Assembly: GCA_028288125.1 (NCBI GenBank)
Contig: JAQBOH010000085.1
Span: 1 to 38,361, forward strand
Length of the DNA: 38,361 bases
Origin: Mucilaginibacter sp.
GTDB taxonomy: Bacteria > Bacteroidota > Bacteroidia > Sphingobacteriales > Sphingobacteriaceae
Reading direction: 5' to 3'
The position numbers and the translations under genes were made by a program. Within the stretch, counting starts at the first letter, position 1. Each line of letters begins with the position of its first letter. Shown one piece after another: positions 8,045 through 38,019 of this stretch. Below the pieces are notes generated by a model. That model was given only the letters and a program-made list of their open reading frames with translations. It ran no database searches and was not told the origin of the DNA.

Positions 8045-8049
8045 AAAGA

Positions 8050-8532: not shown

Positions 8533-8564
8533 GAGATATATCTTTACTTTTATGTTTTTTCTTT

Positions 8565-13656: not shown

Positions 13657-13985
13657 TGAGGACGGCAAAGGTACTATTTAAAGATGAAGAAGCGGGAACC
13701 TTGACCCAGCATGACGATGGCTCGTTTTCCTTCGCGTATGACCCTTCATGGTTGGATGATACCGGCAAAGCGGCCATAAGCCTTACTTTGCCCAAAAGGC
13801 ACCAGGCATACCATTCCGAATTTCTCTTTCCATTCTTTTATAATATGTTGCCGGAAGGCTCCAATAAGCAGGTCGTATGCAAACTCAACCGCCTGGACCG
13901 TGACGACTATTTTGGTTTATTGATCACCATTGCAAAAAATGACACCATCGGCGCGGTAACCATCCATAAAATTGAAAACGAATGA
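13656..13985 (+). CDS. hipS: HipS-like small subunit (HipA N-subdomain 1 family), probable antitoxin
   Basis: I start at ATG 13656-13658 (109 aa) rather than the preceding TTG, because it forms a TGATG overlap with hipB. The sequence (VLFKDEEAGTLTQ, FSFAYDPSWL, AISLTLPKR, LFPFFYNMLPEGSN) is the N-subdomain 1 that in E. coli HipA is fused to the kinase. Here it is a separate protein, as in HipBST systems, where HipS is known to neutralise the kinase HipT. The length is close to that of HipS (about 107 aa as I recall). Its stop overlaps the next ATG by 4 bp (ATGA). It could be mistaken for a broken hipA, but the clean overlaps and separate starts argue for a true three-gene system. Confidence 0.85.
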   Translation: MRTAKVLFKDEEAGTLTQHDDGSFSFAYDPSWLDDTGKAAISLTLPKRHQAYHSEFLFPFFYNMLPEGSNKQVVCKLNRLDRDDYFGLLITIAKNDTIGAVTIHKIENE

Positions 13986-14968
13986 GCATACCAGAAATTA
14001 AATATTGCCCCGGAACATTAGCGCCTGGTTACGATACCTATAGCCGTACTTGCCTCATCCGCGTTTTCGATGGCAAAAAGGTCAGCCACATTCTCCCTTA
14101 TGAATCACCTGCTTCTAACCCGGAAACGGATGAATTATTTGAAGAAAACAGGAGACGGATGTCCATCTCAGGCGTACAGGAAAAATTCTCTGTCCTGCTG
14201 GAAAAGAACAAACTAAGGTTGATCAACGAAGGCGAGCGCGGAAGATATATTCTTAAACCGATCCCAAATGCCGGCAAGAAACCGGATCAGATGCCGGCAA
14301 ATGAGCATGTAACCATGCAGATCGCCCGCCAGGTCTACGGCATAGAAACCGCCGAGAATGCAATGATCTTTTTTAGCAATGGCGCGCCGGCCTATATTAC
14401 CAAGCGGTTTGATGTTAAGCCTGATGGAAGCAAACTGGCACAGGATGATTTTGCTTCGCTGGCAGGAAGAACACCTCAAACCCACGGCGAACACTACAAA
14501 TACGAAGGGAACTATCTTGAGCTTTTCCAGTTGATGGAAAAATTCGTCCCGGCATATAAACTCGAAGCGCCTAAACTATTGAAACTGCTAATCTTCAATT
14601 ATCTGTTCTCGAATGGCGATGCGCACTTTAAGAATTTTTCATTGCTGGAAACACCCCTGGGTGATTACCGCCTCAGCCCCGCTTATGATTTATTGAATAG
14701 CCACGTGCACATTAACGACCACGATTTTGCGCTCGATAACGGGTTGTTACCAAAAAACATAGCACAAGGTAAATTAAGCTACCAATTTAGCGTGTTGGCC
14801 GAAAAAGCAGGGATCGCGCAAAAAGTATTTGCTGAAATGATGGAACTCATGCTTTCACAATCTGAGGCGGTGGAGCGTTTTACATTTTCGTCGTTCCTGG
14901 ACGAGACCACACAACAGCACTACTGGCAGTCCTATCAGACCCGGCTCAAACAATTGCAGAAAAAATGA
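13982..14968 (+). CDS. hipT: HipT-like serine/threonine kinase toxin
   Basis: A 328-residue HipA-family kinase lacking the N-subdomain 1. Residues 61-63 read Ser-Ile-Ser in MSISGVQEKFSVLL, the Gly-rich loop of the family; the corresponding pair of serines is the autophosphorylation site in E. coli HipT. The ATP-binding lysine is in YILKP (Lys92), with NEH (107-109) and KRFD (141-144). The catalytic loop is NGDAHFKNFS (Asp213, Asn218) and the metal-binding Asp is in SPAYDLLNS (Asp236), so the active site looks intact. HipA targets glutamyl-tRNA synthetase and HipT tryptophanyl-tRNA synthetase; the target here is unknown. It is the last gene of the operon. No terminator is visible before the downstream HTH remnant. 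Confidence 0.9.
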   Translation: MSIPEIKYCPGTLAPGYDTYSRTCLIRVFDGKKVSHILPYESPASNPETDELFEENRRRMSISGVQEKFSVLLEKNKLRLINEGERGRYILKPIPNAGKKPDQMPANEHVTMQIARQVYGIETAENAMIFFSNGAPAYITKRFDVKPDGSKLAQDDFASLAGRTPQTHGEHYKYEGNYLELFQLMEKFVPAYKLEAPKLLKLLIFNYLFSNGDAHFKNFSLLETPLGDYRLSPAYDLLNSHVHINDHDFALDNGLLPKNIAQGKLSYQFSVLAEKAGIAQKVFAEMMELMLSQSEAVERFTFSSFLDETTQQHYWQSYQTRLKQLQKK

Positions 14969-22670: not shown

Positions 22671-24638
22671 TTACTTGTTGATTAAAAAATTAAATATCCG
22701 GCAGGCGTTCCCCCTACTTGCCTTATTTTTTTGATCGCTTATCCTAAGCGTTAACACGTGTTCGCCGGGTTTTAAATCGCTGCCAAGCAAAACGTACCAT
22801 GGCAAATGAAGCATACCGCTCCATGGCGTGTACAGGTCGGTACTTTTGAATGCGCCATCGTCAATGGCATACGATATAATTCCTGCATCGGAACCTGAAA
22901 CTATGGCTATTCCAACAGCTGTTCCTTTAAAAGGCAGTGATAATTCTGCTCCTGGTACGGCAGAACTTAATACGGGAACATCTACAAAACCCGGGCGTGT
23001 TGGCAGCCCGTCTGCCGGCTGCCATTTACCAGTAATTGTCCAGCCGCTTTTATAAACGGCATTTTTGATATTGTAATAACTTCCATTCTGGAAGTTCGAC
23101 GGGTCAATTGGTTTTGGTATCGATGTTTTCTGGCTGGTTATTGGCTGATCAAAACAATCCTGAAGCAGACTTTTAATCGTGGCAAAATATAATTCCTGCC
23201 CAAAAATTGCCGGGTGGAGGTCTTTAAAATCATCGGCCCAGGTAAATTCCTTATTATTCATTTTATCCCTTACCTCCTTGCCAAGGTTAATAAACGGGAG
23301 ATTATAATACTGCGATATTAACTGATGATTTCTGATCTCGGTTGGTACGATACCCTGATTATAATCATTCGTTTTTTCAGGATCGGCGAAAGCCATCATC
23401 ACGATATCCATTCCGGGATTGCTTTTTTTGGCGTGCCTGATGATGCCTTCCAATGCGCGCACCTGGGTAATGCTATCTGTGCCATTTGCCTTATCGTTTA
23501 CAGCCGCCTCAACAAAAAGAAGATCAGTTTTTCCCGAATCCAGCACATCGCGCTGCAGCCTGAAGGCATGCGGGAGGCTTCCTAACGAAGGAATACCTGC
23601 GGATATAAAATGAAATTTCACATCGGGGAACCGCTCTGTAAGATACCTGCATACCTTTTGCCGCCAGCCCGGATTATAAGTGATCGATCCGCCAAGAAAA
23701 GTTACTGTAGCTTCCTTTTGAGTTATTACAACATGATAAAAATCTTTTAATCCACCCGCTTTCTTATAGTAGTTATCATAAGACAGCGTCTTTTTCACAG
23801 GGAATGAGTTATTGAAAATAAATGCCGCATAATAATCCGGCCTGTCAATAGGGAAATGGTGGCCCTGCAGTTCCTGCGGGCCGATGGTAACCGGGTAAAT
23901 GCTCATCGGGCCGCCGGCAGCTATGTATCGTTGAGCAAACAGGTATGTATTTTCAACGGCCGGGACCAATTTATCATTTAAGCCTATCACATGCAATACA
24001 GGTACCCTGAATGATGCCAGTCCTTCCAAATTATCAATTGGATTATCATTATACGCCATGGCCTGCTCTTCGGTAAAATGCCAGGCCATCTTAAGCTGCC
24101 GCCATGAAGCCGTATCGCCCGGGCCTTTTTTCTTGCCGCCAGGCCAGCTCTTGAAATCGCATACCGGGGTTTCCCCATATATACAGGTAACTTTATCAGG
24201 GTTTCGTTTCGCCCAACCGTAGGCATACAGGGCGCCTCGGCTTACCGCCTCAAGGGCAACCCTGGGAGCAAATGATAATTTGGTGATTAAATAACTATAA
24301 AACTGATCCCAAACCTGTAAAGATTGCGGGCTTCCATACTGATCATCAACGCTTACATACGCAACATAAAAACCTTTTGAAAGCAGGATACTATCTATAT
24401 CCGTGTGCCAATCCGGAAAAGATGATCGCCAAACCCAGGGATTTCCGGGTAAGGCATGCGCTGGTTTTACGTAATAAGCGGGGTGCCCGTCTATTACAAA
24501 AGTTGTTTTTTCAAACCCCTTCAAGATGTCGGCTGCAGGTTTGCTCTGGCCTTTTACAAACCGGAAAGCACCAACAAGAATTATAGTCAAGATCAGCTTA
24601 GAACATGGCCTTGTAATGGCTAAAATATACCCCGGCAT
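22671..24638 (-). CDS. Two-domain carbohydrate esterase: alpha/beta-hydrolase plus SGNH hydrolase
   Basis: 655 residues with a signal peptide (about 1-31). Domain 1 (40-280) is an alpha/beta hydrolase with a nucleophile in [12 protein letters not shown] (Ser133), NDKLVP (Asp222) and QGHHFPID (His260 or His261). Domain 2 (about 305-500) is an SGNH hydrolase: [12 protein letters not shown] (Ser318), [16 protein letters not shown] (Asn381) and DLHP (Asp473, His475). A beta-rich C-terminal domain (about 515-655) ends the protein. Both catalytic sets look complete, so one polypeptide may remove two ester types (such as acetyl groups) from the glycan. First gene of its own unit, just after a terminator and a predicted promoter. 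Confidence 0.85.
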
Positions 24639-24665: not shown

Positions 24666-24726
24666 TAAATATATACAGAGGCTGAAATTACAAAAATGGA
24701 TAAACCATTCAATTTAGTTTATATAC
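24666..24726 (-). promoter_or_regulatory. Predicted AraC-regulated promoter of the esterase-GH95-GH27-GH36-SDR unit
   Basis: On the minus strand a TATATTTA box (24673-24666; 7 of 8 to TAnnTTTG) lies 23 nt from a bipartite motif. In plus orientation the motif reads TGGATAAACC at 24697-24706 and a degenerate second half from 24713 (TTTAGTTTATATAC). AAATGGATAAACC (24694-24706) is identical over 13 bases to 32885-32897 upstream of susC, and AATTTA follows in the same register in both. The start site would be near 24659, leaving a leader of about 20 nt. No -33 TTG is evident, as expected for an activator-dependent promoter. Confidence 0.6.
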
Positions 24727-24755
24727 CTGCATTATGCACGACTAATCGCTTAAAA

Positions 24756-24790
24756 ATCAATCAGTCATTCTATTTGAATGACTGATTGAT
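24756..24790 (-). terminator. Rho-independent terminator after the SusCD/binding-protein genes
   Basis: Perfect 15-bp stem: ATCAATCAGTCATTC (24756-24770) and its complement (24776-24790), with a 5-nt loop. On the minus strand it is followed by TTTT. It lies 25 bp after the stop of the 412-aa lipoprotein gene, so it closes that unit and separates it from the esterase-GH unit. Confidence 0.8.
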
Positions 24791-24815
24791 GTATTAAAGT
24801 TATACGGTTTGGGAT

Positions 24816-26054
24816 TTATTGAGGATAAAACATGGTGATCTCACTCATATTGGTGTAGCTGCCTTCATTGTCGGAGTTGTGTTTAACCCTGATGCGAATA
24901 TAGCGAACCGGAGTGGTCATATTGTCAAGGACGAATTTCAATGCGGCCTGTCCGTCATCGGTCCTTTTAACCTCTTTGAGCAGCGTCCATCCTTTTGCAA
25001 TTGATTCGGCGTACCAGCCCGGGTCGTTTGGCTGCAGGGTGGTTGCCGCATTGGTAATATCGGCGATACCCCATACTTCAAAATCGTCGGGGTTATGGCA
25101 GCAATTACGGCCGGTCTCCTCTATCTGGCTTAAACTATTGTATATTTTACCCATATCAAAAGTCAATGTCTGGGGCAACGGATGTGCACCGTCACTATGA
25201 AATATGTTGGGATACCCCTGCGGGCCAACGCTTCCGTCCCAAAGCTTGTCTATGTCTGTGCTTGATTGATACGGGTTCATATCATTGGGCAGCTTAACTT
25301 TGGCGAATATCGATTTATCGCAAGGCGCGCTAATGATTATTTGCGGGAACATTGTAAAATTATTCACATTAAAGGTATCGATAGCGCCCTTTACCGGCAC
25401 GTACGACGACCTGTAATCCAATGTTGATCCCGGTTTAAAATCGGTTAATGTAATGGTGCTGTCCCTGTACAATAGTTTTGTTACCACCAGCCCGCTTTTG
25501 TTCGTGTACCTGATGGTAGTAGAAATATTATGCGCAAAACTGAACGATTCGCTCGCTGTATCAATTTTGTAAAAGTTGAGCGTTACATCATTGGTTGGAG
25601 ATAATGTGTAAGGGCTTGATGCCTTAAATGACCTGTTTACCAGGCCCGCCTGGTAATTCGGACCGTACACTTTCACATTATTAATATTAAGCGGAATAGA
25701 TCTGTTTCCCTTCGCATCATACGAGTAAACGACAAATGAATAAGAGTATTCGTTAAGCTTCGGTACAATGACCTTTAAGGTATCAGCAGGGTTATGGTCT
25801 GATGAGGTAAAAGTGAGCGAATCTGCTTTGTTATTCCAGAAGATCATATACTTCACAATACTTGGATCCGGGCTTGGGTTCCATTGCAGCTGCACCCGTA
25901 AATTACCGGGATGTGAGTGCGGATTATTCACAACTCCGGGATATACCAGTTCAGTTCCATTTAAAAATTTCTTAAACTCGGTATCTCTTTTTACACAACT
26001 GATAAAGCCGGCGACCAGCATCAGTATTATCGATATTTTTAAGATTGGTTTCAT
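24816..26054 (-). CDS. Surface glycan-binding lipoprotein (DUF4998-like plus F5/8 type C-like domain)
   Basis: 412 residues. The lipoprotein signal ends at LMLVAGFISC (Cys20). The region of about 30-130 resembles DUF4998: LNGTELVYPG, VQLQWNPSPDPSIVKYMIFW and YSFVVYSYDAKGNRS. A second beta-rich domain follows (about 130-245). The C-terminal part (about 255-412) resembles F5/8 type C (discoidin) modules: LWDGSVGPQGYPNIFHS, PQTLTFDMGKI, ARNCC-like GRNCCHNPDDFEVWG and PVRYIRIRVKHN. Such proteins encoded after susD usually act as outer-membrane glycan-binding proteins. Last gene before the terminator at 24756-24790, 27 nt after the preceding lipoprotein gene. Confidence 0.75.
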   Translation of the reverse strand: MKPILKISIILMLVAGFISCVKRDTEFKKFLNGTELVYPGVVNNPHSHPGNLRVQLQWNPSPDPSIVKYMIFWNNKADSLTFTSSDHNPADTLKVIVPKLNEYSYSFVVYSYDAKGNRSIPLNINNVKVYGPNYQAGLVNRSFKASSPYTLSPTNDVTLNFYKIDTASESFSFAHNISTTIRYTNKSGLVVTKLLYRDSTITLTDFKPGSTLDYRSSYVPVKGAIDTFNVNNFTMFPQIIISAPCDKSIFAKVKLPNDMNPYQSSTDIDKLWDGSVGPQGYPNIFHSDGAHPLPQTLTFDMGKIYNSLSQIEETGRNCCHNPDDFEVWGIADITNAATTLQPNDPGWYAESIAKGWTLLKEVKRTDDGQAALKFVLDNMTTPVRYIRIRVKHNSDNEGSYTNMSEITMFYPQ

Positions 26055-26081
26055 AATTTTTTATTTAAACATTAATAAATG

Positions 26082-27320
26082 TTATTGAGGCTTACCATAA
26101 ATTGAGAATTCCATCATGTGGGCAAAATCACCGCCAGACCAGGTGTCATGAACCAGCATGCGGAAATATCTTACCACAGGGGTGCCCGGAGGGAAATTAA
26201 AATTAACACCCGCAGCAACAAATGCGGCATCAGCAGCATTTGTGAAGCCCGGCGTAAGCCCTGATGGTGGATCCGGGTAATGGTAATTACCTAAATCAAT
26301 CCAATCTCCGACAACAGTTCCTACAGAGGCCGTTTGAGGTAACAGCGCATCCAGCGGAGCGGGCTTATTTGAACCCCAAATTGAAAAATCCCGTGGATTG
26401 CCATGAGCGTAGGCATATTGACCAGGCCTTTCCCACATAATAAACCGGCTTAACTGGGCCGACACGCCCATGCTAAATGTTACCTGCATAGGTTGCGGGC
26501 CGCCCGGGGCAGTATGCCAGCCAGCGGAGTAATCATCAGTTTTGTTATCCCATAAATAAGGAACTTCCCATCCGTAGGCTGTCGGGCTGTCAGTTGGCAA
26601 TCTATAGACCGAGAATTTGCTTTTGTCAATTAATGTTTCAAATATTGGGGTTATCGTTAAAATAGTCGTGTCAGAAACATTCCCGAATTTATCGGTAACA
26701 TAAACACCAAATTTTCTTGGGGCTGCCGCGTAACCACGTACCGTATAGTTTATCGTATCAACATTTGTATAATGCTGATCCTGCACCTCAAGCGCCTTGG
26801 TTGAATTATCAAGCGCTATTAAAATTACGCCGATATCCTTTTTAGCCGGATTTAAGCCTTTTACATTCACTCCGCCAAAGTCAGCAGCTAATTGAATTGT
26901 TGGCTTTATCAGTTGGTAATACGGGGTATCAGGGTGCACGGTTACTGTAACCGGATCGGATTGTACGTTAGACCGGCTTACCGACCAAAGGGTTACGGTG
27001 TAATCCTTGCTTTTGGCAAAGCCGTCAACCAACACAGTGTCGGTGTAATAACTTGCTTTGGTTTGCCGAACCGTCTTTCCGTTGATGTTATATTGTGCCA
27101 TAACGTATAAAAGATTCGTAGAATTGGGCAAGTTATAGGTTATGTATGCCGCACCATTCAAATTTTTAACTTTTACACCTGTGATCACTCCGGGTTTTGT
27201 TTGATCGCCGGAAACCGGTGTATTAAAACCATCGTTCCTCTTACAGGAACCCAATAAAATAATAAGCATCAGCGGTAATACCGGCAGTAATTGCTTTAAA
27301 TGTTTTTTGATCTTTATCAT
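26082..27320 (-). CDS. Surface glycan-binding lipoprotein (DUF4959/DUF5126/DUF5000-like)
   Basis: The frame opens with TTG at 27329, but ATG at 27318-27320 gives a better lipoprotein signal (412 aa, MIKIKKHLKQLL..., ending LIILLGSC with Cys26). After QTKPGVITGVKVKNLNGAAY come an immunoglobulin-like domain (DUF4959-like, about 35-115), a second repeat (DUF5126-like, about 120-220) and a C-terminal discoidin-like domain (about 225-412: YLWDNKTDDYSAGWHT, PMQVTFSMGVSAQLSRFIMW, DFSIWGS, VVRYFRMLVHDTW). This architecture is typical of PUL proteins following susD and suggests carbohydrate binding at the cell surface. It resembles the next gene in layout, so the pair may bind different parts of the same glycan. 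Confidence 0.75.
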   Translation of the reverse strand: MIKIKKHLKQLLPVLPLMLIILLGSCKRNDGFNTPVSGDQTKPGVITGVKVKNLNGAAYITYNLPNSTNLLYVMAQYNINGKTVRQTKASYYTDTVLVDGFAKSKDYTVTLWSVSRSNVQSDPVTVTVHPDTPYYQLIKPTIQLAADFGGVNVKGLNPAKKDIGVILIALDNSTKALEVQDQHYTNVDTINYTVRGYAAAPRKFGVYVTDKFGNVSDTTILTITPIFETLIDKSKFSVYRLPTDSPTAYGWEVPYLWDNKTDDYSAGWHTAPGGPQPMQVTFSMGVSAQLSRFIMWERPGQYAYAHGNPRDFSIWGSNKPAPLDALLPQTASVGTVVGDWIDLGNYHYPDPPSGLTPGFTNAADAAFVAAGVNFNFPPGTPVVRYFRMLVHDTWSGGDFAHMMEFSIYGKPQ

Positions 27321-27363
27321 CACGTTCAATTATTTAAATTTATGAATTGAATTCAGTCCACTG

Positions 27364-29268
27364 CTACCAATAAGGATTTTGCACAAGGTTATTATCGACT
27401 ATCAGGTCATTATCCTTAATAGGCCATAGATAATTTTGCAGCCCGAAAATGGGTATTAAAACCGTACGGGGAGTGTAATATTTACTGGCGTCAGTTTCAT
27501 AAATATTCCAACCCTGAAGCGGACTGCTTAGTACGCCCTGCAATTCTTTCCACCGGCGCAGGTCCCAGCCGCTTTGCGCTTCAAAACAAAGCTCAATCCT
27601 TCTCTCTTGGTGAATGATGGTTCTTAAGCCGGCTTTCGTTGAAAATTTTGAAGGGTTTTTAGAATAAGTGGTCCATGCCTGCTGTACACCTTGTAACCCG
27701 GCACGGGCCCTTACCATATCGATATAAGTAAATACCTGCGGAGATGGGCCGCTGACTTCGTTTAAGGCCTCTGCATACAATAAATATAAACCCGCAAGCC
27801 GCATTAAAGGCAAATGAAATTCTATCGATGCAAAACCATTGTCATAAACGGAAAGATAATTAGCCAGCTTTTTCGGCCAATAGCCGGTAATATTTAAAGT
27901 GTTCAAGTCTTTAGGGCCCGCCAACGAGGTGTTACCGCGCGCTTCAACATGATACATGTCATTTGTCGTTGTTTTTCCATTCCCAAACCAAATTCCGCCA
28001 TCAAAAGCAATATTCGCATAAAACCTTGGTTCGCGGCTAAAATGGTCATTGATCGTTGTGTACCCGTTGGCAATATAAAACCGGCTGGCATTGTCGCCTG
28101 TGCGCAAACCAAACCTGTTTGCATAATCAAAGGTATTATCTTCGTTGATGGGTACACCTTTATCCGAATAAAAAAGCTCGGCTGTCGCAATCGGTACTGC
28201 AAAGGTTGATGGATTCGAAAATATATTTACAGCTGATGCCGGAGTCATCCGGGGCGTGGCATAACCCTGGCACGGAAAAGTTGGATTTAGCGCCCATATC
28301 AGTTCGGGGTTTTGATCCCATTTTTCAGTTACTGCATTTTGCGCGGTTAAAACTTTAGTTAGAGAATCAGGGACACTTATTGCCGTCGCAGAGAATTTAT
28401 ATAATTTCAACCCCGCCGCGGCGGAGGCATCAATCGCCGCTTTACAAGCATCAGCCGCCTTTTGCCATTTTGATACATCAACGGCAGTTGAAAAAAGCAA
28501 CTGACCGTTTTTATTTTTAACACCTGCATAATCAGGGTTTCCGTTAAACAGAGGGCTTGCTTGTGTGGCTAAAACTTCTGCCTTAACCGACAGCGCAATT
28601 ACTGAAGTTATCCTGCCTAATTCCTGTGCCTGGTTAGTAATAACAGCGGGCAAATTAGGCGCCGCCTCATCAAGTAATTGTACGATATAACTAAATACAG
28701 AATCAACCGGTGATCTGGCTACACGTACCTGTTCGGTGGTTGCTGTAATATCGAGGTTTGTTTTAATAATGGGTATCGGCCCATATAAACGCACCAGGTA
28801 ATAATGATAGTAAGCTTTCAGGAATTTCACTTCTGCTATCCAGCGTTGTTTTTCTGCCTGAGAAAGGTCAACGGGCTGATTAATATTATCAAGCATAATA
28901 TTACACCTGCGTATAGACCTGTAAATAGCCTGTCCGCCGTTCTCTCCATCCCAGAAATTAAGGCCCACATTAGCGCTGCTCTGGGTTCCCCGGATGAGGT
29001 TAAACCCGGTTTCCATAAGCGGGTGATTGGTTAAGTTATTGGGATAAATGATCTCGGATGATGTCGTAAATGCTGCATTGGCCGTAGGATCATATAGTTG
29101 CTGCAAAGTAGCATAACAGGTAAAAAGATAATTTTCCGCTTCGTTACGGTTCCTGAAAGCATAATCCAGCGTACCTGTATTATCAGGAACAACGTTCAGA
29201 TATTTTTTACATGATACGCCCGATAAAACGAGCGTGATCAGTAATAAAACTTTATAATATTTTTTCAT
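27364..29268 (-). CDS. susD: SusD/RagB-family outer-membrane glycan-binding lipoprotein
   Basis: 634 residues with a lipoprotein signal (LVLSGVSC, Cys20) and the SusD N-terminus KKYLNVVPDNTGTLDYAFRN, whose helices carry TPR-like units (ENYLFTCYATLQQLYD; EKQRWIAEVKFLKAYYHYYL; YGPIPI). The C-terminal RagB/SusD signature is clear: LMRLAGLYLLYAEALNEV, YIDMVRARAGL, and ERRIELCFEAQSGWDLRRW. It forms the lid of the SusC transporter and binds oligosaccharide at the surface. It lies 21 nt after susC on the same transcript. Ligand specificity cannot be read from sequence; the neighbouring genes point to an alpha-galactosylated, L-fucosylated or L-galactosylated, acylated glycan. Confidence 0.95.
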   Translation of the reverse strand: MKKYYKVLLLITLVLSGVSCKKYLNVVPDNTGTLDYAFRNRNEAENYLFTCYATLQQLYDPTANAAFTTSSEIIYPNNLTNHPLMETGFNLIRGTQSSANVGLNFWDGENGGQAIYRSIRRCNIMLDNINQPVDLSQAEKQRWIAEVKFLKAYYHYYLVRLYGPIPIIKTNLDITATTEQVRVARSPVDSVFSYIVQLLDEAAPNLPAVITNQAQELGRITSVIALSVKAEVLATQASPLFNGNPDYAGVKNKNGQLLFSTAVDVSKWQKAADACKAAIDASAAAGLKLYKFSATAISVPDSLTKVLTAQNAVTEKWDQNPELIWALNPTFPCQGYATPRMTPASAVNIFSNPSTFAVPIATAELFYSDKGVPINEDNTFDYANRFGLRTGDNASRFYIANGYTTINDHFSREPRFYANIAFDGGIWFGNGKTTTNDMYHVEARGNTSLAGPKDLNTLNITGYWPKKLANYLSVYDNGFASIEFHLPLMRLAGLYLLYAEALNEVSGPSPQVFTYIDMVRARAGLQGVQQAWTTYSKNPSKFSTKAGLRTIIHQERRIELCFEAQSGWDLRRWKELQGVLSSPLQGWNIYETDASKYYTPRTVLIPIFGLQNYLWPIKDNDLIVDNNLVQNPYW

Positions 29269-29289
29269 AATCTTATAATTTATAATAAC

Positions 29290-32200
29290 CTATAAGGTTG
29301 CAGTTATACCCATGTTAAACACCTTCTGTATCGGGTAAGCAAATCCGTTACCGCCAAGCTCAGGATCCCATAATTTAAATGGCGCCCAGGTATACAGGTT
29401 TAAGCCATTAAAATATATACGGCATTTGGTGACACTTATTTTTTTGGTAAGAGATGCAGGCAATGTATAACCTACTTCAAGTGATTTAAGACGCATAAAA
29501 CTGCCATTGCGCATCCACCATGTACTTGTTTGGCGGTTGTTCTCTATCTGGTTGCCTGTTACGCCCAACCGGGGATACTCAGCATATAGATTTTGATTGC
29601 TCTCTGACCAGTGGTTATCAGCAAATGCCTGTAACAACTGTGTGTTACCATATATATATGGGTCCGGACTTTGAATGAATGGACTAACCCGGCTTGGGTC
29701 AATAAAAAACGACACGTGTGCCTGCCCCTGGAAAAAGGCTGACAGATCAAAATTCTTATATCCTGCTGAAAGTCCGTAGCCATAAACAATTTCGGGAACT
29801 GTAGGATAGCCTATAAACGTTTGATCTGCCCCGTCTATCTTTCCATCTCCGTTCAGATCGCGGTATTTTATATCTCCTCCCATCGGCGGTATGCCGTTGG
29901 TTGAAAAGATCTGTGTTGGCGAATTTTTCGCTTCATTATCATCAACAAATAGTCGTTCTGCTACGTAGCCGTATTGACGGCCGATCTCTTGTCCTGATTG
30001 TAAGCGATAAGCTTCATTATACTGAGGTTGCTCAAATTTACCATAGGTACTTACGGCGTAGGTAAAATTACCGCGCCCCTGCATCCAGAAGTTTTTGTTG
30101 AATACTTGCTTATAATCCGCCTGGAGATCGATACCTTTTGAATCGGCTGTACCGATGTTGGCGGCAACGTTTGGCAGGCCAGTATTGGGATCGATGGCTT
30201 CAAGTCCCATTGTTGAAGGCAATGACGTGCGTTCCTGTAAAATATTGTACCTGTGATATTTGTAAACCTCGGCAACTATATTCAAGTTTTTCAACACGGT
30301 GAACTCAAGGCCAAGGTTAGCCTGCTTTGATGTTTCCCAGGTAATAGCTGGATTAGCATAGTTATTAATATAAACGCCGTTACGTGTGTAACTGTTATTG
30401 GTGCCAAAGGTAGCCGGATTTCCGCCATTCAGGTTTACGTTTGAAATGTAGTAAAATCTTTGTGAGCCAATATTATCGTTACCCACTAATCCATAGCTTG
30501 CACGCACCTTTAACCGTGAAATGATATCTGATAAAGTACCGGTCCAGAATTTTTCTTCAGATACGATCCATGATGCCCCGAGCGTTGGAAAAAATCCAAA
30601 CCGGTGATCAGCAGAAAAACGTTCTGTTCCGTTATAACCAAAGTTAAACTCTAAAAAATACCGGCTTTTGAAAGAGTAGGTCGCCCGGCCTGCTACGGTT
30701 ACATTGCGATAGGGCAATGAATATTGCAAATCTTGCTGCTTGGTCACAGGATTCTGCGCATTTGAATAAATTGTTTGCTGCTCCGTGGCAATCAGTGAAC
30801 TGCTTATGTTATGATCTCCCAACCGCTTACTGTAATCTAACACACCCTGGAAAAAAACATACGTGTTCATATTGTCAGTACCCGGGTCATGATAGTATGA
30901 TAAATACTCTGTGGCCACATTATTCCCGGTTGGCTGCGGGTTCAGCCATTGAAGCGTATACTGGTTTGATGTTTTGTCGTAACTCCCTACGTTGTAATAA
31001 AATGGAGAATATCCCATCTGTGATTCAAAGTAGGCATAACGATTAGTATGGAACAAACCATGGAAAGAAAGGCCCGGCGTTATAAATTTCAAATTTTGGT
31101 TAAGTTCAAGCTGGGCAGACAATCTTGATTCGGAGTAATTTTTGTGCCCGCGTAATAAAGCAGCATATGGGTTATTATACTGTATGCTGTTATTGCCGCC
31201 AACATTACCAAACAAAATATGTTTTGTATTCCGGTTGGCCGAATCTGCCGGAAAGAATGCCGGGAACAATACCGGGCTGGTGTGTACAGCTACATTATAT
31301 AGGTCGGTTTGAAATGACGCATCAGTGGTTAACGGGCCATTGTATTCATTAAACATTCCCTCCAGGCGAACAACAAGCTCTGTCGTTTTAGAAAGGTTAA
31401 TGTTAATGTTTGAACGCAATTGATAATTTCTGAAATTGACGTTGTTATTATTATTGTTCTGGATATCCTGCTTGAGTATACCATTATCTAAACTGTATGA
31501 GCCGGAAACAAAATAGCGGGCAACATCGGACCCCCCGCTTACACTCATATCCGCCCGTTGTGTAAGGGTTGATTTTTTGAACAGCATATTGAGCCAGTCG
31601 ACAGCCGGGTACACATATGGATTACTGCCAGGTGCGTGATTTAACGTGGCCTGGGTATTGATGATCTTATTTTCAGAGAATGGCAGCGGGCTTAACGGGT
31701 CGCGGGTAGTTGTCGCTTCATTAAACAGCCGCATGTAAGTTATAGGATCTGCCAGCTGCAGCGTTTGGGCCGATTGTGAAATGGAGTTCTCGTACCTGAA
31801 ATTAATAACAGCTTTTCCTGTCTTGCCTTCTTTGGTAGTAACCAGTATAACACCATTGGCTCCGCGTGCTCCGTAAAGCGCCGTCGCACTGGCATCCTTT
31901 AAAATAGAAAAGCTGGCAATATCGTCTACCTGTAAGCGGGCGAGATCATTGCTTGAGTACTCAACGTTATCTATCAGGATCAACGGGCTCTTGTTATAGC
32001 CGAATGTTGTAACCCCCCTTATAAAGAATTGCGCATTATCCTGTCCGGGTTGCCCGCTTGGCTGATAGGCTATTATACCTGCTATCTGGCCTGCAAGCGC
32101 GTTGGTAAGGTTACTGGCAGGTATCTTTAATTCCTCGGGCTTTATAGTAGTAACCGATCCGACTATGGCCTCCCGCCTTTCCTTTTTACCATAAGCCGTT

Positions 32201-32580
32201 ACAACAACTTCTTGCGCTTGGGTGCTGGATTCGATAAGGATAATATTAAAGGTATGCTTATCGGCAGTTATCGTCATTTTTTGCGGGAAAAAGCCCACAT
32301 GCGATATATTTAATACCGTACCGTCAGGTACACTCAAGGCAAACTTTCCGTTAATATCGGTGACAGCATGAATGGCCTTGTTACCAACCGCGGAAATGTT
32401 GGCGCCAAATATTTTCATGCCCAGCGAATCGGAAACTGTTCCGTTTACGCTTAGTCCCTGTGCGCGGGCGTCAAGCGTCATCATACTGAACAACACGGCC
32501 AGAAGGAGTAAACCGGGTACCCGGCTAAGCGGGGTTTTGATACCCCATAAACGTTTGGTGAATTTGTAAAATTGTTTCAT
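29290..32580 (-). CDS. susC: SusC/RagA-family TonB-dependent oligosaccharide transporter
   Basis: 1096 residues with a signal peptide (about 1-41, ending DARAQ). A carboxypeptidase-regulatory-like domain follows (about 44-120: VNGTVSDSLGMKIFGANI, TDINGKFALSVPDGTVLNIS, VGFFPQKM). The junction EVVVTAYGKKERREAIVGSV precedes the plug domain (about 145-255: SNLTNALAGQIAGI, FIRGVTTFGYNKSPLILIDN, ILKDASATALYGARGANGVI). The rest is the 22-strand barrel ending in a PIQKVFNMGITATL tail. With SusD it imports oligosaccharides using TonB. It starts a separate transcript with an unusually long leader (about 270 nt) preceded by the PUL operator motif. Confidence 0.95.
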   Translation of the reverse strand: MKQFYKFTKRLWGIKTPLSRVPGLLLLAVLFSMMTLDARAQGLSVNGTVSDSLGMKIFGANISAVGNKAIHAVTDINGKFALSVPDGTVLNISHVGFFPQKMTITADKHTFNIILIESSTQAQEVVVTAYGKKERREAIVGSVTTIKPEELKIPASNLTNALAGQIAGIIAYQPSGQPGQDNAQFFIRGVTTFGYNKSPLILIDNVEYSSNDLARLQVDDIASFSILKDASATALYGARGANGVILVTTKEGKTGKAVINFRYENSISQSAQTLQLADPITYMRLFNEATTTRDPLSPLPFSENKIINTQATLNHAPGSNPYVYPAVDWLNMLFKKSTLTQRADMSVSGGSDVARYFVSGSYSLDNGILKQDIQNNNNNNVNFRNYQLRSNININLSKTTELVVRLEGMFNEYNGPLTTDASFQTDLYNVAVHTSPVLFPAFFPADSANRNTKHILFGNVGGNNSIQYNNPYAALLRGHKNYSESRLSAQLELNQNLKFITPGLSFHGLFHTNRYAYFESQMGYSPFYYNVGSYDKTSNQYTLQWLNPQPTGNNVATEYLSYYHDPGTDNMNTYVFFQGVLDYSKRLGDHNISSSLIATEQQTIYSNAQNPVTKQQDLQYSLPYRNVTVAGRATYSFKSRYFLEFNFGYNGTERFSADHRFGFFPTLGASWIVSEEKFWTGTLSDIISRLKVRASYGLVGNDNIGSQRFYYISNVNLNGGNPATFGTNNSYTRNGVYINNYANPAITWETSKQANLGLEFTVLKNLNIVAEVYKYHRYNILQERTSLPSTMGLEAIDPNTGLPNVAANIGTADSKGIDLQADYKQVFNKNFWMQGRGNFTYAVSTYGKFEQPQYNEAYRLQSGQEIGRQYGYVAERLFVDDNEAKNSPTQIFSTNGIPPMGGDIKYRDLNGDGKIDGADQTFIGYPTVPEIVYGYGLSAGYKNFDLSAFFQGQAHVSFFIDPSRVSPFIQSPDPYIYGNTQLLQAFADNHWSESNQNLYAEYPRLGVTGNQIENNRQTSTWWMRNGSFMRLKSLEVGYTLPASLTKKISVTKCRIYFNGLNLYTWAPFKLWDPELGGNGFAYPIQKVFNMGITATL

Positions 32581-33060
32581 ATATAAAGGTTATCGTTGGT
32601 TTATTGTGCAAATAGTACCGAACAAAAAGGCAAGAGAATTTCCATATACAGTTTTACTGCATGTGATCATCTTTGATAAATATCGCGCTGTTTGTGACTG
32701 TATTCCGGAATCTTTTTTTGGTAATTAACATTTACCAAATATCCGGGGCGAAGGCAAACATTATTTAATAAATAAGTGTGTACCTGACAGTTTCTTTTAT
32801 TGACGTAAGTAAATCTTTTGCATGCACTATTGGTTTATATGGGTTAATTGGTTTAGTAAAATTATTGCTCAAAAGATGATTCTGAAATGGATAAACCTTT
32901 AAATTTAATGGATTATACTATTATTTATAACAAATTTATTATACAGGTGGATTTCTAAAAGACGTCAGCATAGCTCGAAATAGCAAATAAGGAAGAAATA
33001 AGTTATTAGCTGGATAAAACTAATGGATTATACAACCAACCCGAAATAAATTGCCCGAAT
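32581..33060 (-). other. Long intergenic region upstream of susC
   Basis: 480 bp without a gene. It contains the predicted susC promoter and operator (32857-32918), leaving an untranslated leader of about 270 nt. A further motif-like copy at 33011-33032 (TGGATAAAAC, then AATGGATTATAC) has shorter spacing and no -7 box at the expected place. No clear hairpin or riboswitch was recognised in the leader. Confidence 0.55.
32857..32918 (-). promoter_or_regulatory. Predicted AraC-regulated promoter of susC
   Basis: On the minus strand a TAATTTTA box (32864-32857; 7 of 8 to TAnnTTTG) lies 23 nt from the bipartite motif, whose plus-strand reading is TGGATAAACC (32888-32897) and TTTAATGGATTATAC (32904-32918). 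The two half-sites are 21 bp apart, two helical turns, typical of AraC-family proteins. The start site would be near 32850. Confidence 0.6.
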
Positions 33061-34716
33061 TTATTTGAATATCCAAAAAAGCACAGACATAATAAGTATA
33101 AGCAGTACCGACAAAGTTTTGTAATTGCCTAAACCGCTCCATGCCGCGCCGCGCAAAGGCTCCCATGGCGATTTCCAGAACAACCGGGCACTTTCTTTGG
33201 TGTGTTGTACGGGAAACAAATAAGAAAGGATTACCTGCATGATAAAACACATGCAGAATAAATAAAAGGCCATCATCATAAAAGGCACCCTGCCGATAAC
33301 AGTATCAGGATATAATTTGCTGATAGCGAAAACGGTCACCCCTAGCGCCGACCCTATCCATAATGTATACTTAGCTGATATAGCCGAAGCCTTTTCCCAA
33401 AATACCCCAAGTAAAAACACGCAGGTGATTGGCGGCGCAATGTGCGCAATGATGTCATTTAACCCGTTAAAAATGCTTTCGTAATTATTAAGCAGCGGAA
33501 GCAATGCTAACGAGATTACCAATGCTACCCCGGCGGTAATTTTTCCAACATTTATAAGGCTGGTATCACTGGCTTGTGGCTTGCGGCGTTTATAAATATC
33601 ATAGCTCACCAATGTGGCGATAGCATTTAACGCACCGGATATCTGGCTCATTAAACCGGACAATAAAGCTGCAACCAACACGCCCACTAAACCGGTTGGA
33701 ATGAGCTGGGTTATCATTAATGTATAAATGCCTTTGCTCTCAACAACTTCCTTGCCTGCATGTGTGGCTTTTAATGCGGATATATCTAAATGCCCGGTTT
33801 GCGAAAGCGTATAAGCAAACAAACCCGGCATAACAAAAATAAAAACGGGCAGGATTTTTATGAACCCGCAAAATAATGGGCCGACACGGGCATGGTTTTC
33901 ATCCTTTGCACCTAATACACGCTGTACAATGGTTTGATCGGCACACCAATACCATATACCTAAAATGGGGTAGCCTAAAAAGACAGAATACCACGGCATA
34001 TTGCTTGCGTCGCCACTGGGCCTGAGCATTGATAATTTATTCAGCTGGCCTGCATGCTGCAACGTATTTATCATCGGTTCCCAACCTCCCATTTTATTAT
34101 AGGCTGTCACGCTCATGACTATCGCCCCGCATAAAAGCACGATAGTTTGGATGGATTCTGTCACCACAACGGCTGTTAACCCACCCACCACCGTATAAAT
34201 CGTAGTGATAACAGCTATTGCCATTACACTTGTGTACAAATTGACGCCGAATAGCGTGTGTAATACAATGCCGCCCGCCAGCAATGAGAAGCCGATATGG
34301 ATAATCACCGCTGACACTACTGATATCATGGCAAGCCAGTCGCGGCTGGCGCGGTCGTAACGTTTTTCCAAAAAATCAGGCAGTGTAGCAACGCCGGACC
34401 GGATATAAAACGGCGCAAAAAAGAGGGCCAGCAATATTAAGGTGAATGCTGCCATCCATTCAAAATCACCATTAAGCAACCCCGTATCAAAGCCGCTTTG
34501 CGCAAGGCTAACGAGGTGTACACACGAAATATTTGTTGCAAATAATGCCAGCCCTATCATTGGCCAGCGAAGCTTTTTCCCGGCTAAAAAATACTCGCCT
34601 GCATTATTGTTATTGTTACGGGTTTTGTGCTTGTGACGCAGCCCGGTCCATAAACCGATGATAAAGATGAGGACGATATAAAGGATACTTATAATCAGAT
34701 CAGGAGTATGTATCAT
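33061..34716 (-). CDS. Sodium:solute symporter (SLC5/SSS family), probable monosaccharide importer
   Basis: I choose ATG at 34714-34716 (551 aa) over the upstream TTG at 34728, because GACGGA lies 7 nt before it. About 14 hydrophobic segments span the protein from LIISILYIVLIFIIGLWTG to LSVLLILIMSVLFWIF. SGLT-type motifs include EYFLAGKKLRWPMIGLALFA and TNISCVHLVSLAQSG in the first helices, YTVVGGLTAVVVTESIQTI, GIWYWCADQTIVQRVLGAKD and LSGLMSQISGALNAIATL. It would import the monosaccharide released in the periplasm with Na+. Position directly after the L-fuconate-dehydratase-like gene (25 nt) suggests L-fucose, L-galactose or D-galactose as cargo; this is inference. Confidence 0.88.
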   Translation of the reverse strand: MIHTPDLIISILYIVLIFIIGLWTGLRHKHKTRNNNNNAGEYFLAGKKLRWPMIGLALFATNISCVHLVSLAQSGFDTGLLNGDFEWMAAFTLILLALFFAPFYIRSGVATLPDFLEKRYDRASRDWLAMISVVSAVIIHIGFSLLAGGIVLHTLFGVNLYTSVMAIAVITTIYTVVGGLTAVVVTESIQTIVLLCGAIVMSVTAYNKMGGWEPMINTLQHAGQLNKLSMLRPSGDASNMPWYSVFLGYPILGIWYWCADQTIVQRVLGAKDENHARVGPLFCGFIKILPVFIFVMPGLFAYTLSQTGHLDISALKATHAGKEVVESKGIYTLMITQLIPTGLVGVLVAALLSGLMSQISGALNAIATLVSYDIYKRRKPQASDTSLINVGKITAGVALVISLALLPLLNNYESIFNGLNDIIAHIAPPITCVFLLGVFWEKASAISAKYTLWIGSALGVTVFAISKLYPDTVIGRVPFMMMAFYLFCMCFIMQVILSYLFPVQHTKESARLFWKSPWEPLRGAAWSGLGNYKTLSVLLILIMSVLFWIFK

Positions 34717-34741
34717 TTTATCCGTCAAATATATTAAATGC

Positions 34742-35974
34742 TTATTTATTCAAAACCACCAAATCGCAGCTGCTTCCAGGTTGCTGCGGCGTTTTATATA
34801 CCCCGTTTATAATTTGCACCGGATAAGTAAAATGCTTTTGCAAATGCGGTATATGCTCTAAAAACAAAGCCTGGTGCCCCATTGAAATATGATTAAATAT
34901 AACCAGGTGCTGATGCAATTGCCCCATATCGCCCACGTGAGGAACTACTGGTATCCCATGCTTTTTACATAGTAAACTTACTGTAATAAACTCACTTACG
35001 CCTCCTACCCTAACCGCATCAACCTGTATAAACGAGGCAGCACCTGTTTGCAAATAATTCTTAAAAATAATCCTGTTCGGAACATGTTCACCCAAAGCCA
35101 GCTTCACCGGCGCGATCGCATCGGCAAGGGTTTTATGCGCCAGCACATCGTCAGGATGGGTGGGTTCTTCGATCCAATACGGGTCCATGCTTTTAAGCTT
35201 GTTACAAATAGAAATGGCCTGCGGCAGGTTCCATTGCTGGTTGGCATCCAGCATCACCTTCACATCGTTACCGGCAACTTCCCTTACCATATGTGCACGG
35301 CGGATATCCCTTTCCGGATCAGCCGAGCCTACTTTCAGCTTCATGGCTGTAAAGCCTTCCGCGATAGCTTTTTTGCAGTTTTCACGCACGTTTTCGTCGG
35401 AATAATTGAACCAGCCGATCGAAGTGTCGTATCCCGGATAGCCCGATTGCAATATATCCTCGCGCAAAGCCTGTGTCGATCGCTGTGACCGGAGCATTTC
35501 AACGGCCTGCCCGGCTGTTAATTCGTCCTCGAGATAGGAAAGATCAAGCGTTGCAACAATCTGTTCGGGCGACAGATCTATTAACAGTTTCCATAAAGGC
35601 ACACCTCGTTTTTTAGCCCAAAGGTCATAACAGGCATTTGTGACAGAGGCAAGGGCCAGGTGCACCACACCTTTATGCGGCCCGAGCCATCTGAATTGCT
35701 GGTCGTTGGACAGTTGTTGAAACAAGCTGCCAAAATTAGCCATTATTTCTTCTATATCTTTGCCGGTTAACTTGCTGGCATAATAAAGCGCCGCCTTGCA
35801 CACCAGGTCGTTGCCTTCCCCCAAGGTAAAAGCAAAGCCTATACCTGTTAAGCCGCTGTCGTCAACTAAACTGGTTACTGCGTATGAATATAACGGATTT
35901 TGATGTACAGCGTCGCTGCCTGCGCTGCCATCCAAAGCATAACGTATATCGTCTACCTTAATCTGTTTTATCAT
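34742..35974 (-). CDS. fucD: Enolase-superfamily dehydratase, probable L-fuconate (L-galactonate) dehydratase
   Basis: The frame extends to 36130, but that part overlaps the upstream SDR gene and reads as non-protein (Arg/Ser-rich). ATG at 35972-35974 (410 aa) lies 2 nt after the SDR stop. Enolase-family residues are complete: KLKVG (Lys212, Lys214), VMLDANQQW (Asp243), WIEEPT (Glu269), LALGEH (Glu296), VPHVGD (His346), LEHIP (Glu373). SIGWFNYSDENV (185-196) and RWLGPHKGVVHLA (95-107) match Xanthomonas L-fuconate dehydratase as I recall, whose catalytic residues are offset by about 5. It dehydrates L-fuconate, and often L-galactonate, to a 2-keto-3-deoxy acid in the cytoplasm. Other acid-sugar dehydratases remain possible. 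Confidence 0.82.
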   Translation of the reverse strand: MIKQIKVDDIRYALDGSAGSDAVHQNPLYSYAVTSLVDDSGLTGIGFAFTLGEGNDLVCKAALYYASKLTGKDIEEIMANFGSLFQQLSNDQQFRWLGPHKGVVHLALASVTNACYDLWAKKRGVPLWKLLIDLSPEQIVATLDLSYLEDELTAGQAVEMLRSQRSTQALREDILQSGYPGYDTSIGWFNYSDENVRENCKKAIAEGFTAMKLKVGSADPERDIRRAHMVREVAGNDVKVMLDANQQWNLPQAISICNKLKSMDPYWIEEPTHPDDVLAHKTLADAIAPVKLALGEHVPNRIIFKNYLQTGAASFIQVDAVRVGGVSEFITVSLLCKKHGIPVVPHVGDMGQLHQHLVIFNHISMGHQALFLEHIPHLQKHFTYPVQIINGVYKTPQQPGSSCDLVVLNK

Positions 35975-35976
35975 AT

Positions 35977-36774
35977 TTAAATAAGATTTTCCTGTATGGG
36001 CTGATTGATGGGGCGGCGATAGCCTAATTCGGCGCCGCCGGTTACAGGAAGTATACAACCGGTAATAAACCTGGCATGATCGGATATGAGAAATAAACAA
36101 GCGTCCGCTACCACATCTCCTTCCGGACAATAACCAAGCGCATGTATTTCGTCGAGGTAGTTTTCAACCATTGCCGTATCCGGCTGCTGCTTGCTCCATG
36201 TACGCAGCATAGGGGTCCAAACCCCCGCAGGTGCAACCGCATTTACCCTAATACCAAAAGGCGCATAATCAAGCGCCATGGATTTTGTCAATGCATTTAT
36301 GGCGCCTTTGGTAGCGCTATAGGCCGCATGGATCTCCTGTCCGATATCCCCTACCAAACTTCCTGTGTTCAGGATATTTCCCCTGGTTCTTTTAAGCTCA
36401 TTGATACCGAATCTTGTTGTATTATAAACGCCTTTTACATTTACTTCAAAAAGACGGTCCCACTCGGCCTCTGTCGTATCATCGGCAGTTTTCGACGGAT
36501 TTGATATGCCGGCGTTATTATGGATCACATCTATTTTGCCGAATTTATTTATCGTTTCTGCAATTGCGCTTTTTATGTCATTTGCCTTTGATACATCGGC
36601 GCGGATAAAAATAATATCATTTCCCGGTAGCGTTGTAGCTGCCTTATGAATGCTTTCTTCTGAATCGGATATGATACTGAGCATTGCCCCGGCACTATGA
36701 TATAACCGGGCACATTCAAAGCCAATACCTTCGGTACCACCTGTTAAAAAAATTACCTTGTTTTTTAATAGCAT
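35977..36774 (-). CDS. SDR-family dehydrogenase, candidate L-fucose (L-galactose) dehydrogenase
   Basis: A 265-residue classical SDR: TGGTEGIG (11-18), an acidic residue after beta-2 (Asp37 in IISDSE, favouring NAD), HNNAG (85-89), catalytic Ser139 (NTGSLVG), Tyr152 and Lys156 (YSATK), and C-terminal TGCILPVTGGAELGYRR. It is the first gene of the unit and precedes the fuconate-dehydratase-like gene by 2 nt, so the two enzymes probably act in one pathway. Known L-fucose dehydrogenases, including HSD17B14-type proteins, are SDRs, so oxidation of L-fucose or L-galactose to the lactone is the leading guess. A later dehydrogenase step is equally compatible. It is divergent from araC and preceded by the PUL operator motif. 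Confidence 0.8.
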   Translation of the reverse strand: MLLKNKVIFLTGGTEGIGFECARLYHSAGAMLSIISDSEESIHKAATTLPGNDIIFIRADVSKANDIKSAIAETINKFGKIDVIHNNAGISNPSKTADDTTEAEWDRLFEVNVKGVYNTTRFGINELKRTRGNILNTGSLVGDIGQEIHAAYSATKGAINALTKSMALDYAPFGIRVNAVAPAGVWTPMLRTWSKQQPDTAMVENYLDEIHALGYCPEGDVVADACLFLISDHARFITGCILPVTGGAELGYRRPINQPIQENLI

Positions 36775-36879
36775 ATTATTAAGTGATCGTATGGGATGAA
36801 TTAAATTTTTTTTGCAAACAACCGGGTGGTTTATTCCCGGCTGCTATTGTTCGCGGTTTTATTGGTTGTTAGGCAGGAG

Positions 36880-36942
36880 CAAAAATAGCGGTGTGCAACC
36901 TGTGTTATAATAGGTAAAACATTTATTTTAATGGACTATTCG
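36880..36942 (-). promoter_or_regulatory. Predicted AraC-regulated promoter of the SDR-dehydratase-symporter unit
   Basis: On the minus strand TATTTTTG (36887-36880) is a perfect TAnnTTTG. It lies 23 nt from the bipartite motif, plus-strand reading TAGGTAAAAC (36911-36920) and TTTAATGGACTATTC (36927-36941). This matches the susC motif in 22 of 32 bases in the same register. The start site would be near 36873, with a leader of about 100 nt. No -33 TTG is present. Confidence 0.65.
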
Positions 36943-37076
36943 ATTTTAAACGGAAATAAAAAAATAAATGCCATTTATTTAAATAAGAATTACAAATGAC
37001 TATTTATAAGCAGGATAAGTGGTTGTTTTTATAAATTGTTTTATCTATTATAGCACATTAAATTATTAACCGCTAC

Positions 37077-37098
37077 TTTAATGGAATATTCCATTAAA
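37077..37098. promoter_or_regulatory. Perfect 22-bp palindrome upstream of araC, probable autoregulatory operator
   Basis: TTTAATGGAAT followed by its exact reverse complement, centred at 37087/37088 and ending 18 nt before the araC start codon. The left arm is the distal half-site (TTTAATGGA) of the PUL motif found at 36927 and 32904. A TAACC element (37067-37071) lies upstream as in the other sites. Binding near the start codon would block araC transcription or translation. Confidence 0.6.
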
Positions 37099-37116: not shown

Positions 37117-38019
37117 ATGAGCAGCAGCTTTAAAAAACGTGACGGCTTTGAGGGAGAAAGGTTGATCAGTATTCCCCAAAAAGTATGGAAAGATGTCAAA
37201 GAAAGATACCCTATACTTTTCCCCTTACATATAACACATATTGGCTATTTCCCTAAAGCCGCTTTTCATTACCGGGAGCGTAGAAAAGGCTGTGAAGACA
37301 ATATTCTTATTTATTGCCTGCAGGGGAAAGGCCATTACATTTTAGATAATAAACGTTTCGAAGTACATTCAAATCAATTTATATTACTGCCCGCCACTGA
37401 ATGTTATTTACGATACTGGTCGGATGAGCAGGATCCGTGGACAATATACTGGGTACATTTTACAGGCCATGACATAAATAGTTTTAACAAATCCCTTAAT
37501 TTAAATATTGCACAGGGACCCGTAAATGTCCCGTTCAATGAAAAAGCGATTGAAATATGGCAGAACATCTATCAGACGCTGGAAATGGGTTATAGCGTTG
37601 AAAACCTCTGCAGCGCCTGCTTTTGCCTGTATCACATGATCGCTACATTTTTATTCCCCGAACGCCATATCGCCATTGAGAAAAATGAGCAGGGCGACAT
37701 CATCACCCAAACAGTACTTAACATGCGCAATAATTTAAGCAAAAAGCTGACGGTAGAAGACATGGCGGTTATGCATCGGTTATCTGTATCACATTTTTCA
37801 AATCTCTTTCGCAAATCTACAGGCATGCCCCCGATTGATTATTTTATTCACTTAAAAATGCAAAAGGCTTGCCAGCTACTATATGCCAATGGCAGTAAAA
37901 TAAAAACAGTGGCTTCAGAAATTGGGTATGACGATCCTTATTATTTTTCAAGGATATTTAAAAAATTTATCGGCACTTCACCCGAACAGTACAGAATAAC
38001 AGCAAAAAATACAGGATAG
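37117..38019 (+). CDS. AraC-family transcriptional activator of the PUL
   Basis: 300 residues. The N-terminal part (about 35-165) is a cupin-type sensor domain (ILIYCLQGKGHYILDNKRFE, QFILLPATE, DPWTIYWVHFTG). The C-terminal part has two helix-turn-helix units: KLTVEDMAVMHRLSVSHFSN (210-229) with LFRKSTGMPPIDYFIHLKMQ, then SKIKTVASEIGYDDPYYFSR (260-279) with IFKKFIGTSPEQYR. This is typical of sugar-responsive AraC regulators that activate when the sensor binds a mono- or disaccharide. It is divergent from the SDR-dehydratase-symporter unit across 342 bp that carry its probable sites. No SusR-like or hybrid two-component sensor, nor sigma/anti-sigma pair, is present in the window, so it is the only local candidate regulator. 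Confidence 0.9.
   Translation: MSSSFKKRDGFEGERLISIPQKVWKDVKERYPILFPLHITHIGYFPKAAFHYRERRKGCEDNILIYCLQGKGHYILDNKRFEVHSNQFILLPATECYLRYWSDEQDPWTIYWVHFTGHDINSFNKSLNLNIAQGPVNVPFNEKAIEIWQNIYQTLEMGYSVENLCSACFCLYHMIATFLFPERHIAIEKNEQGDIITQTVLNMRNNLSKKLTVEDMAVMHRLSVSHFSNLFRKSTGMPPIDYFIHLKMQKACQLLYANGSKIKTVASEIGYDDPYYFSRIFKKFIGTSPEQYRITAKNTG

Follow-up and report, generated by a model that had tools for sequence, protein, structure and literature searches.

The window, by which we mean the whole stretch of 38,361 nucleotides analysed here from a Mucilaginibacter genome, contains a sugar locus whose genes lie on the minus strand in three groups, each of them probably a separate transcript; the operon extents given below are predicted ones. 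The first group encodes, in this order, SDR1 (35977..36774, minus), a possible L-fucose (sugar) dehydrogenase, an enolase-superfamily protein resembling L-fuconate dehydratase (34742..35977, minus) and a sodium:solute symporter (33061..34728, minus). The second begins with a SusC-type TonB receptor (29290..32580, minus), followed by a SusD-like protein recognised by a weak NCBIfam match and by DUF4998-type genes, and the third is headed by a GDSL esterase (22671..24638, minus), which precedes GH95, a protein whose melibiase C-terminal match is weak, GH36 and another SDR. The enolase-superfamily protein matches the structures 2hne, an L-fuconate dehydratase (E 2.9e-103), and 4a35 (E 3.3e-110); the NCBIfam models for sugar-acid dehydratases gave matches below cut-off only. 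SDR1 reaches 149.9 bits on the NCBIfam L-fucose dehydrogenase model, for which the cut-off is 300, and it matches structures of 17-beta-HSD14, a protein that has been described as an L-fucose dehydrogenase. The open reading frame listed for the fuconate dehydratase (34742-36130) begins within SDR1, and translation probably starts at an internal ATG near 35977. As seen by eye, two large RHS/YD-repeat-like open reading frames adjoin the sugar locus (3458-12371), and adjacent frames at 13653-14968 resemble a HipA-type kinase in two parts.

Divergent from SDR1 lies the gene for an AraC-family regulator (37117..38019, plus), a one-component protein of 300 amino acids. It possesses both an N-terminal AraC-like ligand-binding domain (PF02311, E 6e-08, 32.9 bits against a cut-off of 21.1) and a C-terminal AraC-type helix-turn-helix (PF12833, E 1.1e-18; PF00165, E 3.8e-19), but it does not pass the equivalog model of the arabinose regulator, NF007860 (92.1 bits against a cut-off of 208).

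Each of the three gene groups is preceded by a putative binding site on the minus strand. Read in gene orientation, the site consists of a single 13-bp half-site repeated imperfectly in direct orientation, GNATWRTCCATYW-N8-GNWTNNNCYATTW, with a register of 21 bp and a total length of 34 bp, where the distal copy GNATWRTCCATYW and the proximal copy GNWTNNNCYATTW represent the consensus over 78 unique sites. The earlier note on this DNA had described a bipartite motif with two different halves; the distance of 21 bp between the parts stands, but the parts are two copies of the same half-site. Site 1, upstream of SDR1, spans 36908..36941 (distal 36929-36941, proximal 36908-36920) and scores 48.1 bits; by direct reading it shows TTTAATGGACTATTC at 36927-36941 and TAGGTAAAAC at 36911-36920. 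Site 2, upstream of SusC, spans 32885..32918 (distal 32906-32918, proximal 32885-32897) with 41.9 bits, and reads TTTAATGGATTATAC at 32904-32918 and TGGATAAACC at 32888-32897. Site 3, upstream of the GDSL-esterase operon, spans 24694..24727 and scores 7.8 bits, its proximal half (24694-24706) being intact, with TGGATAAACC at 24697-24706, and its distal half (24715-24727) degenerate. The motif copies and boxes were thus found where the earlier note had placed them, and the 23 nt that it gave between motif and box, as it delimited the motif, correspond to 20 nt from the 13-bp half-site: a TAnnTTTR box follows the proximal half-site after exactly 20 nt at all three promoters, always in the same orientation. 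These -7 boxes, all on the minus strand, are TATTTTTG for SDR1 (36880..36887), TAATTTTA for SusC (32857..32864) and TATATTTA for the GDSL-esterase operon (24666..24673). The claim that a -33 element is missing holds for two of the promoters, which have no TTTG near -33, but fails for the third, where TTTG occupies -33 to -30, 17 nt before the box.

In Flavobacterium psychrophilum, TAnnTTTG has been placed at -12 to -5 (PMC9723704). On this scale the distal half-site would cover -66 to -54 and the proximal half-site -45 to -33, and transcription is predicted to start at about 36875, 32852 and 24661, 2 nt away from the starts proposed earlier (36873, 32850 and 24659). Just downstream of the predicted SusC start, ACCAATTAA is found in all five loci compared, namely the window (32842-32852, minus), L033, L037, L038 and L039, four of which share the form CCAATTAACC, and AACCAA-like stretches also follow several SDR1 boxes. 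The conserved stretch after the SusC start is possibly a leader or translation element. In addition, a lone distal-type half-site, GTATAATCCATTA, lies at 33021..33033 (minus), 115 bp upstream of site 2. Such an extra copy precedes the SusC site by 115 bp in L033, 106 bp in L103, 130 bp in L039 and, in a weak form, 214 bp in L115, and it is absent at five other SusC sites checked. Distances of 115 and 106 bp correspond approximately to 11 and 10 helical turns, but those of 130 and 214 bp are not near whole turns; the lone half-site in the window is a possible looping partner of the SusC site.

In 300 first-order Markov copies of the window, made to gauge chance occurrence, the full motif never occurred, as against 2 occurrences in the window itself, and a proximal half-site with a phased box appeared on average 0.013 times per copy, as against 3. 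The genome from which the window comes (3.42 Mb, 79.9% complete) contains two perfect matches, both at the sugar locus, and none else within one mismatch. A single match elsewhere (on C131) has 2 mismatches, and three have 3 mismatches, one of which is the third site; up to that limit, 6 matches stand against 10 for the backwards pattern used as a control. No convincing further member of a wider regulon was found in this genome, from which, as it is about 80% complete, regulon members may be missing. The third site lacks significance when taken alone and rests on its orthologue in L033, the closest relative, where the promoter has both halves and scores 34.1 bits.

Conservation of the sites was followed in orthologous loci of the genus, for which all 11 AraC matches outside the window, at 54-87% identity, were taken as stretches, L036 and L040 being truncated at a contig end or at the stretch boundary. 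The araC gene is adjacent to and divergent from SDR1 in eight of the 11. A weight matrix of 34 columns built from 14 training sites, with the gap to the box excluded, was scanned over the window and these stretches. The SDR1 promoter has a site with a phased box in 9 of the 10 loci possessing SDR1, and in the remaining one, L043, a site without a box. At the SusC promoter a strong site was found in 5 of the 8 loci with SusC; L041 has a degenerate site only, at the right phase, and the matrix scan gave no site at the SusC promoters of L034 and L042. For the third operon the site is present in 6 of 7 loci, preceding the GDSL gene in the window, L033 and L035 and GH95 in L037, L038 and L039, and the scan detected no site before the GDSL or GH95 gene in L042. 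The phased promoters before GH95 lie at 17530 in L037, 16848 in L038 and 1372 in L039; the scan detected no site ahead of the GDSL gene in these three loci, where the phased promoter occupies a different position within the cluster. In the window and in seven orthologous stretches with such sites (within L033-L040), every one of the 20 sites before SDR1, SusC and GDSL or GH95, of which 14 had trained the matrix, is separated from TAnnTTTR by exactly 20 nt. L043 was considered apart, and has two sites, one without a box at 20 nt and a second with a box at that distance.

The palindrome TTTAATGGAATATTCCATTAAA in front of araC was missing from the list in the earlier note. It is a perfect one (37077..37098, without strand), composed of two inverted cores of the same half-site, and ends 18 nt before the araC start codon; a single proximal-type half-site, GTTTTATCTATTATA, lies upstream of araC at 37038..37052 (plus). 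The palindrome is perfect in L033 and L103, near-perfect in L035, L036, L037, L040 and others, and absent from L034, L104, L106, L118 and L120. It may serve as the autoregulatory operator of araC, a role that we infer from sequence because no -7 box could be assigned by eye at a conserved distance from the araC-promoter half-site.

When the search was extended to 149 genomes of the genus, 193 matches with at most one mismatch were found in 69 genomes, as against 7 for the backwards pattern, although the genomes are related and the matches are not independent events. The motif occurs in 41 of the 42 genomes with a close AraC orthologue (E at or below 1e-125), in 8 of 9 with an intermediate relative, in 17 of 43 with a remote relative only and in 3 of 55 with none. 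It is thus found in 28 of the 107 genomes without a close orthologue, and Fisher's test of the close-orthologue class against the rest gives p 6e-17, a value to be read with the relatedness of the genomes in mind. No match was found in G101, which has a close orthologue, or in G116, which has an intermediate one. Motif presence, as judged from these sequences, tracks the divergent AraC gene, and this comparison supports the earlier proposal of the AraC protein as the likely activator. The rigidity of the layout was equally clear when it was left free to vary: with gaps of 8-34 nt allowed, 120 of 138 matches had the box at exactly 20 nt, the next best gap accounting for 4 and the backwards pattern giving 10 matches in all, and when the spacing between half-sites was freed, 21 bp was kept by 138 of 143 matches (14 backwards). 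The precise phasing claimed from three promoters is supported by this comparison. Among the 78 unique sites of the fetched loci, positions -30 to -13 carry little information, so the spacer is conserved in length, not in sequence, and -64, -63 and -61 are nearly invariant though they lie outside the fixed bases of the search pattern. TTTG beginning at -34 to -32 is present in 9 of the 78.

A wider set consisted of the best 80 loci kept from a capped search, which include Mucilaginibacter, Pedobacter, Chitinophaga, Flavobacterium and Siphonobacter and some of which share genomes with the training loci. Here the matrix found 76 matches above 12 bits in 58 of the 80 loci, with the box at 20 nt in 58 and at 19 nt in 3, compared with a mean of 0.46 matches for 50 column-permuted matrices and 2 for the reversed matrix. 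A box at 19-21 nt accompanies 21 of 24 loci in which the AraC identity is at least 60%, 20 of 34 at 47-59% and 4 of 22 at 46% or below; the signal fades in other genera. An open reading frame lies downstream of 76 of 82 unique sites, and 64 of these frames are related to window proteins (SDR1 31, SusC 18, GDSL 8, GH95 5, others 2), shares that are biased by the way the loci were collected, namely around AraC genes or sites. Four of the 12 remaining frames were scanned and proved to be an aldose 1-epimerase, a GH92, a GH2-type protein and, in a Flavobacterium (L134), a GH29 fucosidase. That target, the homology to fuconate dehydratase and the presence of GH95 in the cluster suggest a link of the system to fucose, with the score of SDR1 below the L-fucose dehydrogenase cut-off on the other side; the ligand of the regulator is probably L-fucose or a compound close to it.

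More distant AraC genes carry a comparable layout. In 38 distinct upstream regions of paralogues 34-46% identical, a motif-free count of 13-mer repeats before TAnnTTTR (gaps 14-24) gave 75 counts for a shift of 21 bp and 14 for the next shift, where the sliding 13-mer may score a single repeat more than once. When the search was anchored on a pair of TCYAT cores with a 21-bp shift, a box followed in 15 of the 38 regions, at a gap of 20 nt in 10 and of 19 nt in 5, and no box followed the paralogue core pairs at any other gap from 5 to 35. All 15 phased repeats point away from araC. Among the genus-wide matches listed, at least 11 lie 108-150 bp from an AraC paralogue and are divergent to it. 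Phased repeats at paralogues mean that the layout belongs to a wider AraC group.

We consider it highly likely that the divergent AraC-family protein is a class II activator of the three co-oriented operons, which would serve the use of L-fucose or fucosylated glycans. In E. coli, AraC at araBAD occupies the tandem half-sites araI1 and araI2, in a register of about 21 bp, with the proximal one reaching the -35 element, and this class II geometry is a feature of AraC-type activators there. In the proposed mechanism, the Mucilaginibacter protein would bind the 21-bp direct repeat as a dimer, one helix-turn-helix domain per half-site, with the proximal half-site at about -45 to -33 taking the place of the -33 element; the replacement fails at the third site because TTTG is present at -33 there. 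Loaded with sugar, the bound protein would recruit the sigma-A polymerase to TAnnTTTG. Glycan uptake and breakdown by SusC/D, GH95, alpha-galactosidases and the esterase would in this way be coupled to sugar import and oxidative fucose catabolism by the symporter, the dehydrogenase and the fuconate dehydratase, and the palindrome before araC may serve autoregulation, the inducer presumably being L-fucose or a close metabolite.

Binding of the sites by another AraC-type helix-turn-helix regulator, either a hybrid two-component protein or a paralogue encoded elsewhere, with the adjacent AraC regulating itself or nothing here, is improbable. Hybrid two-component motifs are likewise direct repeats averaging 21 bp, according to PMC3878776, and the paralogues have similar sites, but motif presence follows the orthologue of the adjacent gene, araC keeps its place divergent from SDR1 and its site in most orthologous stretches, the araC-promoter palindrome shares the half-site core, and no regulator was found among nine other window proteins scanned. 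Still less probable is that AraC acts mainly as a repressor that blocks polymerase at -33 until the sugar releases it. A protein at -45 to -33 could also block, and the TTTG at -33 of the third promoter would suit such a role; the scarcity of TTTG at that position among the 78 sites, however, implies that the majority of these promoters would have little strength unaided, and the strict gap of 20 nt is expected for polymerase contact rather than occlusion. The rigid spacing between the motif and the -7 box might suggest an extended core promoter or an alternative sigma-factor element, a reading that is hardly credible in view of the two copies of one half-site, the few occurrences per genome and the near-absence of the motif from genomes lacking any relative of the regulator.

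Parts of this architecture have precedents. Direct repeats with 21-bp periodicity were described for AraC-family rhamnose regulators, including those of Bacteroides, in PMC3870299; RhaR of Bacteroides is also an AraC-family sugar regulator with predicted 21-bp direct repeats, but its sugar, motif and genes differ. The hybrid regulators (HTCS) of B. thetaiotaomicron, as presented in PMC3878776, control polysaccharide utilisation loci through AraC-type helix-turn-helix domains and predicted direct repeats, but they are sensor kinases with a periplasmic domain, unlike the one-component protein of Mucilaginibacter. FucR of Bacteroides, which the same paper assigns to the GntR family, also controls fucose use in Bacteroidota and belongs to an unrelated protein family, and the Mucilaginibacter fucose pathway, set against the FucR system, looks oxidative owing to its fuconate dehydratase. 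A TTTG at -33 has been described for Bacteroides, but in F. johnsoniae no such element could be identified (PMC7366714). The AraC/araBAD and RhaS/rhaBAD systems of E. coli share the protein family with the Mucilaginibacter regulator, which differs in half-site sequence, in the Bacteroidota box TAnnTTTG, in the palindrome at the araC promoter and in having a polysaccharide utilisation locus as target. In the open PMC literature, searched by titles and abstract openings with subscription papers outside its scope, we found no description of this regulator or of a fixed distance from an AraC repeat to TAnnTTTG. The novelty lies in the regulator, in its regulon and in the rigid phasing relative to the -7 box; 21-bp direct repeats as such have precedents in AraC-type rhamnose regulators and in HTCS.

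Through a rigidly phased motif, examined across 149 genomes of the genus, an AraC regulator from soil Bacteroidota is connected with its operons, and the phase yields predictions of start sites. The arrangement recurs in relatives that carry the neighbouring regulator gene and thus looks like a genuine sugar-sensing switch of a known type. AraC-type activators of this phylum may commonly take the place of the weak -33 element. On balance, we favor the view that a large AraC subfamily in Bacteroidota uses this layout as its general grammar, with a class of promoters in which a 21-bp direct repeat 19-20 nt before TAnnTTTR mostly replaces the -33 element and serves several sugars. If this is true, the regulon, its orientation and its start site would be readable from sequence for several sugars, which would be fucose in the present case and another sugar for the paralogues divergent from aldose 1-epimerase.
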